Below are positions 37,005-57,466 of a stretch of 64,000 bases of DNA, piece after piece. Below the pieces are notes generated by a model. The model saw nothing but the letters and a program-made list of their open reading frames with translations, was not told the origin of the DNA and did not search any database. This DNA is from Halococcus salsus (GTDB lineage: Archaea; Halobacteriota; Halobacteria; Halobacteriales; Halococcaceae), in assembly GCF_009900715.1 (NCBI RefSeq), contig NZ_JAAAJC010000002.1, forward strand, positions 186,001-250,000, in the 5' to 3' direction. The number at the start of each line of letters is the position of its first letter. Within the stretch, counting starts at the first letter, position 1. The translations under genes and the position numbers were made by a program.

Positions 37005-38912
37005 ATGGAGGGCGACGACGTGGTCGAGCCGAGCCCGGCGTTCCGCGACCGTGCGAACTGCCGGACCGACCCCCGCGACCGGTTCGCCGACGACTGGCCC
37101 GGTTCCTGGGCCGCCGCCGGCGACCTGCTCGACTGGGTCGAACCCTACGAGTCGGTGCTCGCCGGCGACCGACCGCCGTTCGAGTGGTTCACCGGCGGAA
37201 CGCTCAACGCCTGTCACGAGTGTCTCGACCGCCACCTCGCCGAACGCAAGAACCACCTCGCGCTCCGGTGGGAGGGCCAGCTCGGCGAGCGCCGGAGCCT
37301 CACCTACCTCGACCTCTATCACGAGGTCAACGCGTTCGCGGCCGCGCTCCGGGACCTGGGTGTGGAGGAGGGCGAGGTCGTCACCCTCTACATGCCGGTC
37401 ATCCCCGAACTCGTCGTGGCGATGCTGGCGTGTGCCCGCCTCGGTGCCCCACACTCGGTGGTGTTCGCGGGCTTCTCGGCCGACGCGCTCGCCGACCGGA
37501 TGGACCGCGCCGACTCGCGGTATCTGATCACCTGTGACGGCTACTACCGCCGTGGCGACGCGATCAACCAGAAACGCCGGGCGGACAACGCCCGGCTCGC
37601 CATCGACCACGCACTGGCGGCGACCGTCGTGGTCGAGCGGCTCGGCGGCGCGCGGCTCGGGGCCGACCAGCACGACTACCACGCGCTGGTCGACGACCAC
37701 GTGGGTAGGGAGATCGCCCCGGTCGCCCGCGACGCCGGCGACGTCCTCTTTCTGATCCACACCTCCGGTACCACGGGCCGACCGAAGTCCGTCGCCCACA
37801 CGACCGGGGGCTACCTCGCTCAGGTCGCCTGGACCGCCCGGAACGTGCTCGATATCACCCCCGGCGACACCTACTGGTGTTCGGCCGACATCGGCTGGGT
37901 GACGGGCCACTCCTACATCGTCTACGGGCCGCTCGCGCTCGGCACGACCACGATGCTCTACGAGGGGACCGCCGACCACCCCGAGAAGGACCGGATCTTC
38001 TCGCTGATCGAGCGCAACGCCGTCGACGTGTTCTACACCGCCCCCACGACGATCCGGTCGTTCATGAAGTGGGGCCCGGAGTATCCCGCACGTCACGACC
38101 TCTCGAGCCTCCGCCTGCTGGGGACCGTCGGTAAACCGATCGACCCCGAGGCGTGGCACTGGTATCACGACCACGTCGGCGGCGGCTCGTGTCCGGTGGT
38201 CGATACCTGGTGGCAGACCGAGACGGGCGCGATCCTCGTCTCGACCCTGCCGGGTGTGGACGGGATGAAACCCGGCGCGGCGGGACCGCCCTTGCCGGGC
38301 ATCGACGCCGCCGTTCTCGCGCCGGACGGCACCGAGTGTCCGACCGGCGAGGTGGGGACGCTCGCGATCCGGTCGCCGTGGCCGGCAATGCCGCGCGAGC
38401 TCGCGACCGGGACCGACTGGGGGAGCGCCGCCGTCAGCGACGACTGGCAGTACCGCTCGGGCGACAAGGCGGTCGTCGACGCCGACGGCTACATCCGGGT
38501 GCTCGGGCGGGCGGACGACGCGATCACCGTCCCGGGTCGGCGGGTCGGCGCGGCGGAGATCGAGGGCGCGGTGGTCGGGGTCGACGGCGTCGCCGAGGCC
38601 GCCGTCGTCGGTGTGGAACATCCGACACGGGGAACGGCGGTCCACGCCTACGTCAGCCCCGAAGCCACCCGGACGGCCGACGACGCGCTTCGCGAGGCGG
38701 TGCTCGGGGCGGTCGAGGCCGCCATCGGGCCGATGGTTCGACCCGAACGGGTGGTGTTCACGCCCGAACTCCCGAAGACCCGCTCGGGCAAGATCATGCG
38801 CCGGCTCCTGAAAGACGTCGCCAACGGCGAGCCCTACGGCGATATCAGCGCGCTCCGCAACCCCGAGGTCGTCGGCGAGCTCGAATCCGGCGACGGTGTT
38901 TCGGAAGAATAG
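37005..38912 (+). CDS. acs: Acetyl-CoA synthetase (acetate--CoA ligase), copy 1
   Basis: 635 residues of the AMP-forming acyl-CoA synthetase family. Motifs: FLIHTSGTTGRPKSVAHTTGG (P-loop), CSADIGWVTGHSYIVYGPLA, VVDTWWQTETGAIL (acetate pocket Trp), and the acetylation-sensitive A10 lysine in KTRSGKIMRR. It activates acetate, or a close short-chain acid, to the CoA ester with ATP. It is about 45 % alike by eye to the second copy at 40.8 kb, so propionate or another acid is possible for one of them. The end of the gene lies within a 13-bp inverted repeat, and an HTH-10 regulator follows in the same direction. Confidence 0.93.
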   Translation: MEGDDVVEPSPAFRDRANCRTDPRDRFADDWPGSWAAAGDLLDWVEPYESVLAGDRPPFEWFTGGTLNACHECLDRHLAERKNHLALRWEGQLGERRSLTYLDLYHEVNAFAAALRDLGVEEGEVVTLYMPVIPELVVAMLACARLGAPHSVVFAGFSADALADRMDRADSRYLITCDGYYRRGDAINQKRRADNARLAIDHALAATVVVERLGGARLGADQHDYHALVDDHVGREIAPVARDAGDVLFLIHTSGTTGRPKSVAHTTGGYLAQVAWTARNVLDITPGDTYWCSADIGWVTGHSYIVYGPLALGTTTMLYEGTADHPEKDRIFSLIERNAVDVFYTAPTTIRSFMKWGPEYPARHDLSSLRLLGTVGKPIDPEAWHWYHDHVGGGSCPVVDTWWQTETGAILVSTLPGVDGMKPGAAGPPLPGIDAAVLAPDGTECPTGEVGTLAIRSPWPAMPRELATGTDWGSAAVSDDWQYRSGDKAVVDADGYIRVLGRADDAITVPGRRVGAAEIEGAVVGVDGVAEAAVVGVEHPTRGTAVHAYVSPEATRTADDALREAVLGAVEAAIGPMVRPERVVFTPELPKTRSGKIMRRLLKDVANGEPYGDISALRNPEVVGELESGDGVSEE

Positions 38913-39035: not shown

Positions 39036-40685
39036 ATGGTAGAGATGGCCGCGTTTCTCTGCGAGCGGGGGTACGAGGGGCTCCGCCGGGCGACCCGGAC
39101 CCACCGGGCCGACCTCGTCGTTCGGCTCTGTGGTGAGGTGGGACTCCGGCCGAGCGAAATCGTCGCGGTCGGGATCGACGACCTCCACGAGGTCGACTCG
39201 GTCGAGTTTCTCGCCGTCGACGGGCGCGAGGCGTTCGTTCCGGAGGCGGTGGGCCACGCCCTCCGGAAGTACGCCAGCACCGTCGACGACGGCCCCCTGA
39301 TCGACGTCTCGCCGCGCCGGGTGCAGATGCTGGTTCGGGAGACCGGCGAGCGGGCGGCCGAGGCGACCGGCGACGACCGGTTTCGCGGGGTGTCGACGCG
39401 CGACCTCCGGGCCGCCCACGCGCGTCGGCTCCTATCCGACGGGACCGACCCTCGGGTCGTGCTCGCGGTGAGCGCCTACGAACGGCTGTCGGCGCTCGAA
39501 CCCCACCTCGCGGCCCCCGACCACGAGGCGGTCGCCGCGGCGTTCGCCGAGGACGGGAACCGGGCCGAGCGCCCGCCGGCGCGGCTCCAGCGGGCGGTGA
39601 CGGTCGCGGCCGACGTGGGCGAGGCGCTCGCCGCCGCGACCGAGCCGTCGGCGATCCACGAGACCGTCTGCGCCCGGCTGGCCGACACCGACGGCTACCG
39701 GTTCGCGTGGACCGCGACGGTGACCGGGGACGACACCGCGGTCCACGCGCACGCGGGCGTGGCGGCCGACACCGTCGAACGGACCCTCCTCGACCGGGCG
39801 GAGCTCGTGGAGGAGGCGCTCGACGACCGAACGGTCCGGACCGAGGCGGGCGAGTCGTCCACGCTCGTCGTCGTCCCGCTCGTGAGCCAGGAGCCCACCC
39901 GGAGCGTGCTGGGACTCGGGGTCGCGAGCGGGGCGGTCGTCCCGCTCGAACGCGACCTCCTCCAAGTGCTCGGCACACAGATCGGCCACGCGCTGGCGGC
40001 GGTCGAGCGCAGGCGGCTCCTCCTCGCCGACAGCGTGACCGAACTCCGTTTCGACGTCGACACCGAAGCGGCCGTTCTCCCGCGGGTCGCGGCCGGGCTC
40101 GACTGTACATTCGAGCTGGTGGGAGTCGTCCCCACGGACGAGGGGTTGTTGTGTTACGTCGCGGTCCGGAACGCAACCCCGGACGCCGTCCTCGAACGGG
40201 CGACGACCACCGACGCGGTCGGGGACGTCCGGTTCGTCGGCGACGACGAGGACGGGGTGGTGCTCGAGGTCACGCTCCATCGCTCCCCCCTCCGGACCTT
40301 CGTGACGGCGGGCGGCTACGCCCGGTCGTACGAGGTCGACGCCGGTGGCGGGACGATCGTCGGCGAACTCGCCCCCGACACCGACGTTCGCGGCGTCGTC
40401 GAGGCCGTGGCCGACACGTTCCCCGGGGTCCACCTCGCGGCGAAGCGGAAGGCCGACCACGAGGTCGCGACCGGCGGGGGCTTCCGGGGACCGCTCGCCG
40501 ACGACCTCACCGACCGCCAGGCCGCGGTGCTCCGGGCGGCGTTCTTCGGCGGCTACTTCGAGTGGCCGCGCGACTCCACCGCCGAGGAGCTGGCCGACTC
40601 GCTCGACGTCTCGCCGCCGACCCTCCACCACCACCTCCGGGTCGCCCAACAGAAGCTCCTCCGGGCCTTCCTCGACGGCACGTGA
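39036..40685 (+). CDS. HTH-10 (Bat-type) regulator with a recombinase-like N-terminus
   Basis: 549 residues. Residues about 1-160 resemble a tyrosine recombinase catalytic domain: LCGEVGLRPSEIVAVGIDDL (box I Arg38), VDGREAFVPE, then STRDLRAAHARRLLSDGTDP, matching the HxLR...H box but with the first His replaced by Arg. Tyr148 has no clear catalytic context, so the domain is probably inactive. A GAF-like sensor domain (about 185-330) follows, then a Bat-type region and a C-terminal HTH-10 domain (LTDRQAAVLRAAFFGGYFEW, STAEELADSLDVSPPTLHHH). Starts at 38946 or 39045 are possible. It sits between two acs genes, so acetate metabolism is the likely target. Confidence 0.88.
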   Translation: MVEMAAFLCERGYEGLRRATRTHRADLVVRLCGEVGLRPSEIVAVGIDDLHEVDSVEFLAVDGREAFVPEAVGHALRKYASTVDDGPLIDVSPRRVQMLVRETGERAAEATGDDRFRGVSTRDLRAAHARRLLSDGTDPRVVLAVSAYERLSALEPHLAAPDHEAVAAAFAEDGNRAERPPARLQRAVTVAADVGEALAAATEPSAIHETVCARLADTDGYRFAWTATVTGDDTAVHAHAGVAADTVERTLLDRAELVEEALDDRTVRTEAGESSTLVVVPLVSQEPTRSVLGLGVASGAVVPLERDLLQVLGTQIGHALAAVERRRLLLADSVTELRFDVDTEAAVLPRVAAGLDCTFELVGVVPTDEGLLCYVAVRNATPDAVLERATTTDAVGDVRFVGDDEDGVVLEVTLHRSPLRTFVTAGGYARSYEVDAGGGTIVGELAPDTDVRGVVEAVADTFPGVHLAAKRKADHEVATGGGFRGPLADDLTDRQAAVLRAAFFGGYFEWPRDSTAEELADSLDVSPPTLHHHLRVAQQKLLRAFLDGT

Positions 40686-40768: not shown

Positions 40769-40800
40769 ACGGGCGGTCGTTACGATAATTAGCTAGTTGG

Positions 40801-40807
40801 CTTATGA
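40801..40807 (+). promoter_or_regulatory. TATA box of acs copy 2
   Basis: CTTATGA, about 31 bases before the ATG at 40835, in a locally AT-rich stretch. Confidence 0.45.
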
Positions 40808-40834
40808 AGAATGGTGTAGAACGTGGGGTCGGGT

Positions 40835-42811
<1,977 letters not shown>

Positions 42812-42823
42812 GGAGCCCCCAAC

Positions 42824-43435
42824 ATGCCACTCGACACCGACATCGGCGATCCCGCACCGCTCGGTCTCGTGAGTTTCGGGCTCACCACCGTGCTGTTGAG
42901 CCTCGTCAACGCCGGCCTCCTGCCGAGCGCCGGCGAGGCGGTCGTGTTGCCGTTGGCGCTCGCGTTCGGCGGAACCGGACAGCTCGTCGCGGGCGTCCTC
43001 GAATTCCGTACTGGGAACACCTTCGGCCAGACCGCCTTCTTCAGCTACGGGGCGTTCTGGTGGTGGTTCGGCCTGCTCCTGCTCTTCGACGGCAACGGCT
43101 GGCTCTCGATCCACACCCAGACCCTCGGGGCGGCGCTGCTCCTCTGGGGCGTGTTCACGTTCTACATGTGGATCAGCACGTTCGCGCTCAACTGGGGGCT
43201 CTGGAGCGTGTTCCTCACGCTGTGGGTCACGTTCGCGCTCCTCGGGTTCGGCGACCTGCTGGGCATCGACCTCCTCCTGATGCTCGGCGGCTACGTCGGC
43301 ATCCTCTCGGGCGCGCTCGCGATGTACGTCAGCTTCGCCGAGGTGGCGAACTGGTCGTTCGGCCACACGGTCGCCCCGCTCGGCGACGCGCCGATGGGGA
43401 GTAGCTCGACCACCACCGCCGACACCGCCGACTGA
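42824..43435 (+). CDS. AceTr/SatP-family acetate transporter
   Basis: 203 residues with six hydrophobic segments. The family motif near the N-terminus is GDPAPLGLVSFGLTTVLLSL (NPAPLGL in bacteria), and ALAFGGTGQLVAGVLEFRTG is the second diagnostic segment, followed by FGQTAFFSYGAFWW. The family (GPR1/FUN34/YaaH) forms hexameric acetate or succinate channels. Its position 12 bases after acs strongly supports acetate uptake. The C-terminus is short and hydrophilic. Confidence 0.93.
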   Translation: MPLDTDIGDPAPLGLVSFGLTTVLLSLVNAGLLPSAGEAVVLPLALAFGGTGQLVAGVLEFRTGNTFGQTAFFSYGAFWWWFGLLLLFDGNGWLSIHTQTLGAALLLWGVFTFYMWISTFALNWGLWSVFLTLWVTFALLGFGDLLGIDLLLMLGGYVGILSGALAMYVSFAEVANWSFGHTVAPLGDAPMGSSSTTTADTAD

Positions 43436-43573: not shown

Positions 43574-43672
43574 ATGGCAGATGTAACAACCTGTCCGTGT
43601 GACGTGGCGTCGCGTCGTTCACCGTTCCGAACCGTCCACCCGTCGCCGCCGGAGGTCGGTGGGCATGGGTGA
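43574..43672 (+). CDS. Possible 32-residue leader peptide
   Basis: An ATG-started frame of 32 codons beginning MADVTTCPCDVASRR, too short for usual gene callers. Its ATG is placed exactly as expected for a leaderless transcript from the TATA box at 43544-43551. It ends with TGA at 43670-43672, overlapping the start of the DUF4212 gene (ATG 43665) in another frame. The ribosome site GGAGGT (43651-43656) for that gene lies inside it. The C-x-C motif is its only notable feature. It may couple translation to the symporter gene, or simply be leader RNA; protein production is unproven. Confidence 0.4.
   Translation: MADVTTCPCDVASRRSPFRTVHPSPPEVGGHG
43651..43656 (+). promoter_or_regulatory. Shine-Dalgarno site of the DUF4212 gene
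   Basis: GGAGGT eight bases before the ATG at 43665. Such sites are rare in this window, where most genes are leaderless; it supports the short start and internal translation initiation on a longer transcript. Confidence 0.6.
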
Positions 43673-43976
43673 ATCCGAGACGGGAACGAAGTCGGACGGC
43701 GAAACTCGGAGTGGGACGGGCATCAGCGAGGCCAACGCCAAGGAGTACTGGCGGCGGAACGTCAAGCTGATCGCCGGGCTGTTCGTCGTCTGGTTCGTCG
43801 TCTCGTTCCTCGTGGCGATCATCCTCGCGGAACCGCTCTCGACGGTCAACATCGGGGCGGTCCCGCTGCCGTTCTGGTTCGCCCAGCAGGGGTCGATCAT
43901 CGTCTTCGTGGCGCTGATCTGGATCTACGTCTGGCGGATGAACAAACTCGACCGCGAGTTCGGGGTGCAAGACTGA
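43665..43976 (+). CDS. DUF4212 small subunit of a sodium:solute symporter
   Basis: 103 residues. A hydrophilic Ser/Thr/Glu-rich N-terminus is followed by AKEYWRRNVKLIAGLFVVWF and two transmembrane helices (about 37-57 and 72-92), then WRMNKLDREFGVQD. DUF4212 proteins are the small partners of SSS-type symporters for acetate and similar acids. The stop is immediately followed by the ATG of the symporter, with no gap. The start is chosen by the GGAGGT site. Confidence 0.92.
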   Translation: MGESETGTKSDGETRSGTGISEANAKEYWRRNVKLIAGLFVVWFVVSFLVAIILAEPLSTVNIGAVPLPFWFAQQGSIIVFVALIWIYVWRMNKLDREFGVQD

Positions 43977-45836
43977 ATGACCGGACTCTCGACCGCACTG
44001 GTCCCGGCCCAGCTCGGGCTCGGGATCGACACGTGGAGCCTGATCCTGATCGCCCTCTCGATCGTTCTCTACTTCGGCATCGCCATCGTGATGCACGTCG
44101 GCGACACCGACGACTTCTACGTCGCGGGTCGGACGATCCCGGCGTGGGCGAACGGCACGGCGGTCGCCGCCGACTGGATGTCCGCCGCATCGTTCATCTC
44201 GCTCGCGGGCCTCGTCTCGTTCTTGGGGTACGACGGCACCGTCTACCTGATGGGCTGGACCGGCGGCTACGTGGTGCTCGCCCTGCTCATCGCGCCGTAC
44301 CTCCGCAAGTACGGCGAGTACACCATCCCCGACTTCATCGGGGACCGCTACTACTCGAACACCGCGCGCGGCGTCGCCGCGCTCGCGACGCTGTTCGTCT
44401 CGCTGACCTACATCGCCGGGCAGATGCGCGGCGTCGGCATCGTGCTCAGTCGATTCCTGGGTGTCGACATCAACCTCGGGATCATCGTCGCGCTCGGGCT
44501 CGTCGCACTGATCGGCGTGCTCGGCGGGATGAAGGCGATCACCTGGACCCAGGCGGCCCAGTACTTCATCCTGATCTTCGCGTTCGTGCTCGTCACGGTC
44601 GCGATCTCGCTCAACCTCACGAACAACCCCTTCCCACAAGGCGCACTCGTCACGAGCGACATTGCCTCACGACTCGGCCAGTTGCAGGCCGAGATCGGTG
44701 CCGGGGAGTACTTCTTACCCTTCCAGGAGTACTCACAGCTCCAAGTCTTCGCCATCGCGATGACGCTGATGCTCGGGACCGCGGGGCTGCCCCACGTCAT
44801 CATGCGCTTTTACACCGTGCCGAGCGCCTCGGACGCGCGCCGGTCGGCGGGCTTCGCACTGCTATTCATCTCGATCCTTTACGTGTGTGCGCCCGTGCTC
44901 GCGGTCTTCGCGAAGTTCAACCTCATCAGCACGCTACACAACACGCCCGTTCAGGAGGCTCAAGCCATCCCGTGGGTCAGTCGGTGGTCCGAGACCGGCC
45001 TGCTCACGATACAGGACCTCAACAACGACGGCGTCATCCAGATGGCGGGCGGCCTCGGGGCGACGGGCAGCGAGGTCATCGTCGACGCCGACATCATCGT
45101 GCTCTCGACGCCCGAGGTCGCGGGGCTCGCACCGATCGTGATCGGCCTCGTGGCGGCGGGCGGGCTGGCGGCGGCGCTCTCGACGGCGGACGGACTACTG
45201 ATCGCGATGTCGAGCGCCGTCTCGCACGACATCTACTACAAGATATTCAACCCGGACGCCTCCGAGCGCCAGCGCCTGCTCATCGCGCGGGTCGTCGTCA
45301 TCATCGCCGCGGCGGTCGCGGCGTACCTCGGCATCAACCCGCCGGGCTTCGTCGGTGAAGTGGTCGCGATCGCCTTCGGGCTCGCGGCCGCCAGCCTGTT
45401 CCCGGTGATCCTGCTCGGGATCTTCGACCCACGGATGAACCGCGAAGGGGCCATCACCGGCATCCTCGTCGGGTTGGTCTTCACGCTCGTCATGGTCGTG
45501 TTGATGACCTCCGATTCGATCTTCGGGACGGCGGATCCGATCCTCCCGACCTTCCTCGGGCTCGAAGCCCAGGGTATCGGGCTGGTCGGGACCATCCTCA
45601 ACTTCGTGGTGGCGTTCGCGGTCTCGCGGGTCACGCCGCCGCCACCCGAGGAGATCCAGAACCTCGTCGAGGACATCCGGCTGCCCCAGGGCTCGCGGAC
45701 CGGCAGCGAGACGGCCGCCGACGGCGGCGAGGTCCAGGCGGATGGTGGCGAGGTCCGGACCGACGGCGGTGCCGACCTCGCGACGGCCGCCCGCGACGCA
45801 CGAACGGATTCCCCGAATCGGGACGAAACGAACTAA
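43977..45836 (+). CDS. Sodium:solute symporter (SSS family), probable acetate/monocarboxylate carrier
   Basis: 619 residues with about 13 transmembrane helices. SSS motifs: DDFYVAGRTIPAWANGTAVA, ADWMSAASFISLAGL, IPDFIGDRYYSNTARG and AAALSTADGLLIAMSSAVSH. It is of the ActP/VC_2705 type that pairs with DUF4212 and carries acetate, pyruvate or lactate with sodium. An extra segment with GEYFLPFQEYSQLQ precedes helix 7. The C-terminal 60 residues are an acidic, Gly/Asp-rich tail. The acs-acetate-channel cluster immediately upstream suggests acetate. Confidence 0.93.
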   Translation: MTGLSTALVPAQLGLGIDTWSLILIALSIVLYFGIAIVMHVGDTDDFYVAGRTIPAWANGTAVAADWMSAASFISLAGLVSFLGYDGTVYLMGWTGGYVVLALLIAPYLRKYGEYTIPDFIGDRYYSNTARGVAALATLFVSLTYIAGQMRGVGIVLSRFLGVDINLGIIVALGLVALIGVLGGMKAITWTQAAQYFILIFAFVLVTVAISLNLTNNPFPQGALVTSDIASRLGQLQAEIGAGEYFLPFQEYSQLQVFAIAMTLMLGTAGLPHVIMRFYTVPSASDARRSAGFALLFISILYVCAPVLAVFAKFNLISTLHNTPVQEAQAIPWVSRWSETGLLTIQDLNNDGVIQMAGGLGATGSEVIVDADIIVLSTPEVAGLAPIVIGLVAAGGLAAALSTADGLLIAMSSAVSHDIYYKIFNPDASERQRLLIARVVVIIAAAVAAYLGINPPGFVGEVVAIAFGLAAASLFPVILLGIFDPRMNREGAITGILVGLVFTLVMVVLMTSDSIFGTADPILPTFLGLEAQGIGLVGTILNFVVAFAVSRVTPPPPEEIQNLVEDIRLPQGSRTGSETAADGGEVQADGGEVRTDGGADLATAARDARTDSPNRDETN

Positions 45837-55855: not shown

Positions 55856-57466
55856 CTACCCCTCCTCGTCGAGGAACGCGGTCAGGAGCTTTCGTTGGGC
55901 CTTCCGGAGGTGGCTGTGGAGCGTCGGCGAGGAGATCCCCATCGAGGCCGCGAGCTCCTCGGCGGTCGAGCCGCGCGGCCAGTCGTAGTAGCCCGCGAAG
56001 AACGCCGCCCGCACGGCCGCGCGCTGTTTCTCGGTGAGTCGGTCGTCGACCGCCTGCCGGAAGCCCGCCTCGGTCCCGACGGGGAGCTCGACCGCGCGCT
56101 TCGAGAGGAACGCCGTTCCGGGGTAGGCCGCCTCGAAGGCGTCGACCACCCGTCGGACGTCCGTGTCGGCGGCGACCTCACAGACCAACCGCGCCTCGCC
56201 GTCCTCGGCCGTGAGCCGTCGGACCGTCCCGCCCATGTCGATCGCGATATCGGCCGGCCCCTCGGTGGTGGCGAACTCGAACAGCCCGTCCTCCTCGCCA
56301 CCGGAGACGAGACGTGCCTCCACGATCCCGGGGAACGTCTCGGCGAGGTCGAGCACGGATTCCGGCGGCGTTCCCTCGATCGTGACGTACTGGAGGACGG
56401 TGTCGTCGGCCGCCGGAACCATGCCGTCGAGGCTGTAGCGACAGTCGAGCCGGTCGGTGACCGCGACGGGGAACGCGGTGTCGTCCGTCAGGCGGAGGGT
56501 GACCGCGACCGCCGTATCGGAGAGCAGGAGCTTCATGTTCTGGGCGGCGCTGATCGCGAAGCCCGCGACCTCGCCGAGCACCGTGAGCCCCGCGCGCTCG
56601 CGCTCGGCGAAGGCGTCCGGGTGGGTCGCCGAGAGCCCGAGCACGCCGTAGACGACCTCCCGATAGGAGAGGGGGACCATCGCCATCGGTCCGGAGCTGC
56701 CGTGTGCGTCGGCCATCGAGGGGGACGGCTCCTCGACGACTTGGACCGTCCCGGTTTCGAGCGCGCGAACGCCCGGGTCCGCCAGCCCGCCGTCGGTGGC
56801 GACCGCCGCGATGTCCTCGACCCCCGCACCGGTCTCGACAGCGAGGCCGCCCGTCTCGTCGCGTTCGGCGATCCACGCGACCCCGTAGAGGTCGGAGGCC
56901 GCGATCCGCTCACAGACCGTGCGTTCGATCTCCTCGCGGGTCGCGGCCCCGACCAGCCCGCGGATGATCCCCTGGATCACGACGTTGATCCGGTCGAGCC
57001 GGGCGAGTTCGTCGCGCTGGCGTTCGAGCCGGCGCTCGCGTTCGGCCAGCGCCTTCTCGGCGCGACGCTGGCCCACCGCGTTCTCGACCCGGTTGGCGAG
57101 GAGTTCGTACTGGTCCACCCCGCCACCCTTCCGGAGGTAGTCGGTGACGCCCATCGAGATCGCCTCGCTCGCGGCCTCCTCGCTGCCCTTGCCGGTCGAG
57201 AGGATGAACGGGAGCTTCGGGTGGGAGTCGCGAACCGTCGCGAGGAGCTCTAGCCCGTCGGTTCCAGGCATCCGGTAGTCGCTGACGATACAGTCGACCG
57301 AGGCATCGTCGAGGTGGTCGAGCGCCGCCGCGGCGCTGGTTTCGGTCTCGACGACGAACCCGTCGATCCCCCCGAGCACCGTCGCGGCGAGCGAGACGAT
57401 CGCCGGCTCGTCGTCCACGAACAACACCCGGATCGGGTCGGCATCCGCCGCCGCGGATCGCTGCAT
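55856..57466 (-). CDS. Receiver/GAF/HTH-10 response regulator
   Basis: 536 residues. A receiver domain (about 10-125) with VLFVDDEPAIVSLAATVLGG, the phospho-acceptor Asp in DCIVSDYRMPGTDGLEL and FILSTGKGSEEAASEA is followed by a coiled linker, a GAF-type domain (about 165-315) and a Bat-type region. The C-terminal HTH-10 domain reads LTEKQRAAVRAAFFAGYYDW and STAEELAASMGISSPTLHSH. It begins at the ATG at 57466. It follows the large histidine kinase gene by 74 bases in the same direction, so they form a two-component pair. The receiver resembles the one at the kinase N-terminus almost residue for residue. Confidence 0.93.
   Translation of the reverse strand: MQRSAAADADPIRVLFVDDEPAIVSLAATVLGGIDGFVVETETSAAAALDHLDDASVDCIVSDYRMPGTDGLELLATVRDSHPKLPFILSTGKGSEEAASEAISMGVTDYLRKGGGVDQYELLANRVENAVGQRRAEKALAERERRLERQRDELARLDRINVVIQGIIRGLVGAATREEIERTVCERIAASDLYGVAWIAERDETGGLAVETGAGVEDIAAVATDGGLADPGVRALETGTVQVVEEPSPSMADAHGSSGPMAMVPLSYREVVYGVLGLSATHPDAFAERERAGLTVLGEVAGFAISAAQNMKLLLSDTAVAVTLRLTDDTAFPVAVTDRLDCRYSLDGMVPAADDTVLQYVTIEGTPPESVLDLAETFPGIVEARLVSGGEEDGLFEFATTEGPADIAIDMGGTVRRLTAEDGEARLVCEVAADTDVRRVVDAFEAAYPGTAFLSKRAVELPVGTEAGFRQAVDDRLTEKQRAAVRAAFFAGYYDWPRGSTAEELAASMGISSPTLHSHLRKAQRKLLTAFLDEEG

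Follow-up and report, generated by a model that had tools for sequence, protein, structure and literature searches.

The window analysed here is a stretch of 64,000 nucleotides from the genome of Halococcus salsus, and the feature under study is a real gene with an ATG start and its own stop codon (Table 1). As the preliminary description had said of this Bat-type regulator, the gene is placed between two genes for AMP-forming acetyl-CoA synthetases, acs1 and acs2, and the placement is conserved across the family. Indeed, across ten families of the order, 40 sampled genome loci show the arrangement acs–regulator–acs, in one orientation and with the regulator directly between; the exceptions are contig ends at two loci (L138 and L143) and a damaged acs2 at a third (L079). 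After acs2, the 40 loci usually carry either a small membrane protein plus a sodium:solute symporter or a YaaH gene. Four annotated plasmid loci, from Haloferax, Halococcus and two Haladaptatus, have the same order, with the genes named acetate--CoA ligase, bacterio-opsin activator domain protein, acetate--CoA ligase, DUF4212 and cation/solute symporter. At the damaged locus (L079 6842-7440, G008:C2), only the N-terminal codons of acs2 are left, with the promoter element and start kept, and the remnant precedes a DUF4212-like gene and a symporter; an adapter, AGATGTGTATAAGAGACAG, and an N follow ~0.4 kb beyond the remnant, and either deletion or misassembly may account for the missing part.

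Table 1. Features of the regulator locus, with positions counted from the first nucleotide of the window.
Feature	Position	Strand	Basis
acs1, upstream AMP-forming acetyl-CoA synthetase	37005..38912	+	Pfam, synteny
YR-BAT regulator, 549 aa (recombinase-derived domain, GAF-like, BAT, HTH_10)	39036..40685	+	ORF, Pfam, model
Tyrosine-recombinase catalytic domain without a working active site, residues 1-178	39036..39569	+	AF2, XerA match, alignments
Helix start S92-PRRVQMLV-V100, with invariant R94/R95/M98	39309..39335	+	63-protein alignment
GAF-like domain with flanking helices, residues 182-330	39579..40025	+	Full-length model; Pfam in relatives
BAT domain (PF15915), residues 332-484	40029..40487	+	Pfam, 5e-39
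HTH_10 DNA-binding domain (PF04967), residues 491-542	40506..40661	+	Pfam, 3e-19
Promoter element TTACGATAATTAG-N8-CTTATG, 5' of acs2	40780..40806	+	Comparison of regulator-acs2 gaps
acs2, downstream AMP-forming acetyl-CoA synthetase	40823..42811 (likely start ATG 40835)	+	Pfam, synteny
GPR1/FUN34/YaaH family, putative acetate transporter	42824..43435	+	PF01184, 3e-40
Small membrane protein (in the DUF4212 place of annotated loci) and sodium:solute symporter	43599..45836	+	Position, BLAST between loci

The C-terminus of the window protein carries BAT and HTH_10 domains by Pfam, as in the HTH-10 (Bat-type) regulators, and both domains were found in all 29 of the fused relatives scanned; relatives of the window protein show 32–63% identity. 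The full-length model retains the N-terminal recombinase domain and places a GAF-like fold, then BAT and then the HTH after it, at a pTM of 0.43 that makes the relative arrangement of these domains unreliable. A Pfam match to GAF is present in relatives and absent from the window's copy of the regulator. There are also longer fused members of ~790–840 aa (L093, L142, L146, L152 and L153); in L093 an extra PAS domain lies between the recombinase domain and GAF, which suggests that sensors were added to the longer proteins. In the closest relative (L014/L076, G007:C14), the reading frame appears to shift behind the recombinase domain, where the translation SCLLYT is what CTGTCTCTTATACACATCT, a Nextera adapter, would encode; judging from these translated residues, the break is probably an assembly artefact rather than a natural split. 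The window holds a further HTH_10 gene, whose domain match (55880-56038 on the reverse strand) lies in an open frame of 1106 codons and is the genome's best for HTH_10, and some 31 HTH_10 matches lie above the cut-off in the genome as a whole.

On the window protein the Phage_integrase profile (PF00589) is sub-threshold, at 18.2 bits against a cut-off of 27.1, and a scan of genome contigs with the single regulator protein gave two weak, partial matches only. PF00589 is matched below 1e-3 by 20 of the 29 fused relatives, however, and the NCBIfam XerA_Arch profile (2.3e-5) and a PHROG integrase profile (1e-4) both match the window protein over approximately residues 6–142. Residues 1–181 were predicted by AlphaFold2 (AF2, with a 40-row alignment) to fold at a mean pLDDT of 92, and structural searches with Foldseek and VIA-align placed XerA first in the PDB (5hxy; Z 18.1, rmsd 2.9 over 158 residues), with a second XerA structure, 4a8e, also matching (Z 16.7) and other tyrosine recombinases, such as Tn1549 Int, XerH, Cre and lambda Int, coming next. 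Moreover, a profile made from 30 fused proteins alone reached Pyrococcus abyssi XerA at 3.1e-16, with the full domain covered. By predicted fold and profile, the N-terminal domain is confirmed as a tyrosine-recombinase catalytic domain, and chance or compositional similarity was ruled out by a profile match of 3e-16 and a fold match of Z 18. The preliminary description had read a recombinase pattern at residues 30–160; the relationship is real, but the domain is larger and spans residues ~1–178, and the expectations of a recombinase-like fold and of a likeness that goes beyond composition are both borne out. Neither the fused protein nor either of two scanned solo relatives gave a Pfam match to Phage_int_SAM, the core-binding domain found in SNJ2-type integrases.

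Aligned with the R-K-H/K-R-H/W-Y set of active tyrosine recombinases, the window protein has R38, no Lys, R122, R125, Y148 and H157, retaining R38 and R125 and lacking the other four of the six catalytic residues. The change of the first His of HxxR to Arg, already noticed in the preliminary description as one of several altered key positions, is indeed found at R122, and the Lys, the Trp and the nucleophilic Tyr are lost as well. Across the family, the Lys occurs in 0 of 63 fused domains (their hairpin being altered or shortened), the His in 3 and the nucleophile Tyr in 30, whereas each is present in 18 of 18 of the closest solo integrases; the Trp is found in 52 of the 63 and again in all 18 solo proteins, while Arg-I (R38) is kept in 54 and Arg-II (R125) in every fused domain. 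In these alignments all sampled fused members are shown to lack residues needed for DNA cutting. It is barely credible that the protein still works as a recombinase and regulates transcription besides, for instance through inversion or bridging of DNA at the acs locus. The family does appear among the tyrosine recombinases catalogued in PMC8371274, and three fused members (L019, L024 and L026) lack the Lys only, but the Lys is missing in 63 of 63, the His in 60 and the Tyr in 33, and changes of Lys or Tyr inactivate Cre, XerH and lambda Int (as cited in PMC10516654), to be set beside four of six residues lost in the window protein.

Outside the fused family, the closest relatives found for the domain are solo proteins of ~190–230 aa, ~40% identical over its whole length. 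Haloarchaeal plasmids carry them under the annotation of site-specific integrase, and they occur in chromosomal contigs too. Unlike the regulator, these solo integrases, including those of Halobacterium salinarum pHS1 and Haloarcula marismortui pNG200, have a complete R-K-H-R-W-Y set and no regulator fusion. The domain tree splits fused from solo domains at a single branch (SH-aLRT 97); on the fused side, L019, L024 and L026 group together in a small clade close to the base, a polarity that is suggestive only under the midpoint root used. Because the solo sites are intact and the clade that has lost only the Lys sits near the fused base, the sequences fit an active solo ancestor followed by stepwise loss of catalytic residues. 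Examined for a single fusion, the tree of the C-terminal part shows five label changes, with long branches. A phage source was considered and rejected, as the phage collection held one weak match (Haloferax phage LSV-48N integrase, 33%), so that the nearest relatives found are plasmid-type solo integrases and no named virus. The window's genome itself contains solo integrases of the same family that are broken or divergent (G000:C10:50025-50306, G000:C3:360754-361064 and G000:C2:178821-179381), of which the C3 and C10 copies resemble pseudogenes. A long open frame with the regulator-type N-terminus occurs in at least 129 of the 293 sampled genomes of the order, and no full-length fused protein was seen among the matches listed in 25 genomes with weak or no N-terminal matches.

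Five residues, R64, R94, R95, M98 and R125, never vary among the 63 fused proteins, and 61 of these proteins retain Q97; among the solo enzymes, R94, R95, Q97 and M98 are variable. The residues S92-P-R-R-V-Q-M open a helix (residues 93–111 in the predicted model) that, anchored at its N-cap, we take to correspond to the major-groove helix marked by STR(259)ALE in Cre and MTR(220)Q in XerD, while HMMER places residues 92–98 on XerA differently. As three of the invariant residues (R94, R95 and M98) lie on the helix so aligned, they suggest that a DNA-reading function would have been retained, and even fixed, in the fused domain. The acidity of the domain is close to that of the solo domains, which is normal for halophiles and uninformative. 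The proposal that a recombinase fold had been reused is thus supported by fold and profile, by the loss of catalytic residues in all fused members and by a likely base-reading helix that was kept; of the two uses first suggested, DNA binding or dimerisation, the invariant arginines favour DNA binding over dimerisation alone, short of proof. It is quite improbable that the domain is a small-molecule or protein sensor whose DNA-binding past is irrelevant: other HTH-10 proteins do have sensor modules (PAS, receiver) in the N-terminal place, and L093 includes a PAS of its own, but the conserved residues appear from the alignment to be arginines at DNA-facing recombinase positions rather than residues of a new pocket.

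A further line of evidence comes from the gap between the regulator and acs2, which contains TTnGnAYAnYTAG, then ~8 bases, and then a TATA-like YTTA. In the window's genome the copy at acs2 is the only match to TAATTAGN{8,11}YTTATG, and this strict pattern occurs once, at the acs2 promoter, in each of five same-genus genomes with the gene and nowhere in five same-genus genomes without it. The core pattern (YTAG, 7–11 bases and a TATA-like TTWW) is present in 40 of 40 acs2 promoters with the regulator versus 1 of 24 orthologous promoters without, the chance level being ~3 of 40 in shuffled controls that used a slightly narrower form of the core. On the acs2 protein tree, the element was concordant in ~7.8 and opposed in none of eight independent pairs differing in the regulator (p 0.008). 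The pattern was derived from viewing these same promoters, so the weight of the comparison rests on the regulator-less genomes and not on the discovery itself. The sole regulator-less match, L170 (G042), may be a leftover or may have arisen by chance. Some element matches upstream of acs1 were mis-assigned copies of acs2 promoters and were left out. Upstream of the regulator gene itself the element is found in 2 of 36 cases, near chance, and autoregulation is therefore unsupported. Farther upstream of acs2, near the end of the regulator gene, a CTAA-N4-YTAG dyad occurs at a dozen loci versus ~0.2 expected.

Work with Haloferax volcanii, in which acs7 is HVO_A0156 and acs8 is HVO_A0158, showed by Northern blot that the operon acs7-HVO_A0155-ssf-uspA28 yields a 4.6-kb transcript in acetate-grown cells that is absent from cells grown on glucose or casamino acids (PMC7746861). 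Haloferax lucentense has the same gene order with the regulator between both acs genes, and HVO_A0157 is therefore presumably the H. volcanii regulator; in H. lucentense the element lies 47 bases 5' of the second acs. A regulator of the acs genes or of the induced operon goes unmentioned both in PMC7746861 and in a study of acs in H. mediterranei (PMC11784441). A candidate regulator and a candidate binding site can now be named for acetate induction in Haloferax, a genetically tractable host in which this reading is directly testable.

Considering the acetate-induced counterpart operon together with the regulator's position and the element, we favour, with moderate confidence, a regulator that is dedicated to the downstream acetate operon and probably activates it, with the exapted recombinase domain as a putative DNA-binding and assembly module. 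The domain would have been retained for sequence-specific DNA binding and subunit assembly; with HTH_10 it would bind TTnGnAYAnYTAG just 5' of the acs2 TATA box and, in some genomes, the CTAA-N4-YTAG dyad as well. The GAF/BAT part may shift DNA binding on a signal tied to acetate supply, and the regulator would thereby control the downstream operon for acetate uptake and activation, more probably as an activator than as a repressor. Somewhat unlikely is a recombinase domain that stays off DNA and is solely a platform for dimerisation or tetramerisation. HTH_10, which belongs to a DNA-binding family and is present in all of the proteins, could suffice to read the element, and the promoter core YTAG presumably resembles the site of Bat-type activators; subunit assembly without DNA binding is likewise possible because tyrosine recombinases multimerise through this same catalytic domain. 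Arguing against such a platform, the phosphate-contacting Arg positions are kept (R125 in 63 of 63, R38 in 54 of 63), and R94, R95 and M98, which sit on the helix that likely reads bases, show stricter conservation than they do in the solo integrases. An extension of the favoured reading that we consider unlikely on the whole is an activator that reads specific DNA sequences through two modules, one of them the dead recombinase domain, bridging the distal dyad and the acs promoter through a recombinase-like synaptic assembly with no cutting. Were it true, a recombination synapse would have been turned into a transcription switch.

The fused regulators are almost certainly the proteins grouped as fam30-04 among the archaeal tyrosine recombinases (Badel et al. 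2021, PMC8371274), a family described there as having Phage_integrase, BAT and HTH_10, in some members with GAF_2, with membership set at 30% identity to listed members across 60% of the length. The Pfam architecture is the same, with the PF00589 part, sub-threshold in the window protein, provided by fold and profile. In its treatment of the family, the review lists these proteins as recombinases and does not discuss catalytic loss, acs synteny, a promoter element or function. Within the open-access literature, the family-wide loss of a working active site, the fixation at the acs locus and the coupling to a promoter element appear to be new, and a catalogued "recombinase" family would be reassigned to gene regulation. 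The whole suggests that an old enzyme of mobile DNA became a switch for acetate genes, and offers a clear case of a mobile-element enzyme exapted in a cellular archaeal regulator kept across haloarchaea.

A similar conversion has been described for MrpR of SPbeta, which has a recombinase fold, has lost recombination and acts as a DNA-binding repressor (PMC10516654). The SPbeta-type phage repressors MrpR/YopR and SroF (8a0a and 9rgl) have the tyrosine-recombinase fold in common with the regulator (structural match Z 12–14), but they are stand-alone, non-archaeal proteins that possess a core-binding domain and are unfused to GAF, BAT or HTH_10. According to the model and the structural matches, the fused regulator instead starts with the catalytic domain, without the preceding core-binding domain of the MrpR type. 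MrpR also keeps the Lys and the Tyr and has lost other residues, whereas the fused family is without the Lys. With Bat, the bacterio-opsin activator, and other HTH-10 proteins such as HVO_1357, the regulator has the BAT and HTH_10 C-terminus in common, and Bat is likewise encoded close to the gene it controls. The difference lies at the N-terminus, where Bat has PAS/GAF and HVO_1357 a receiver, and where the fused regulator has a recombinase domain.
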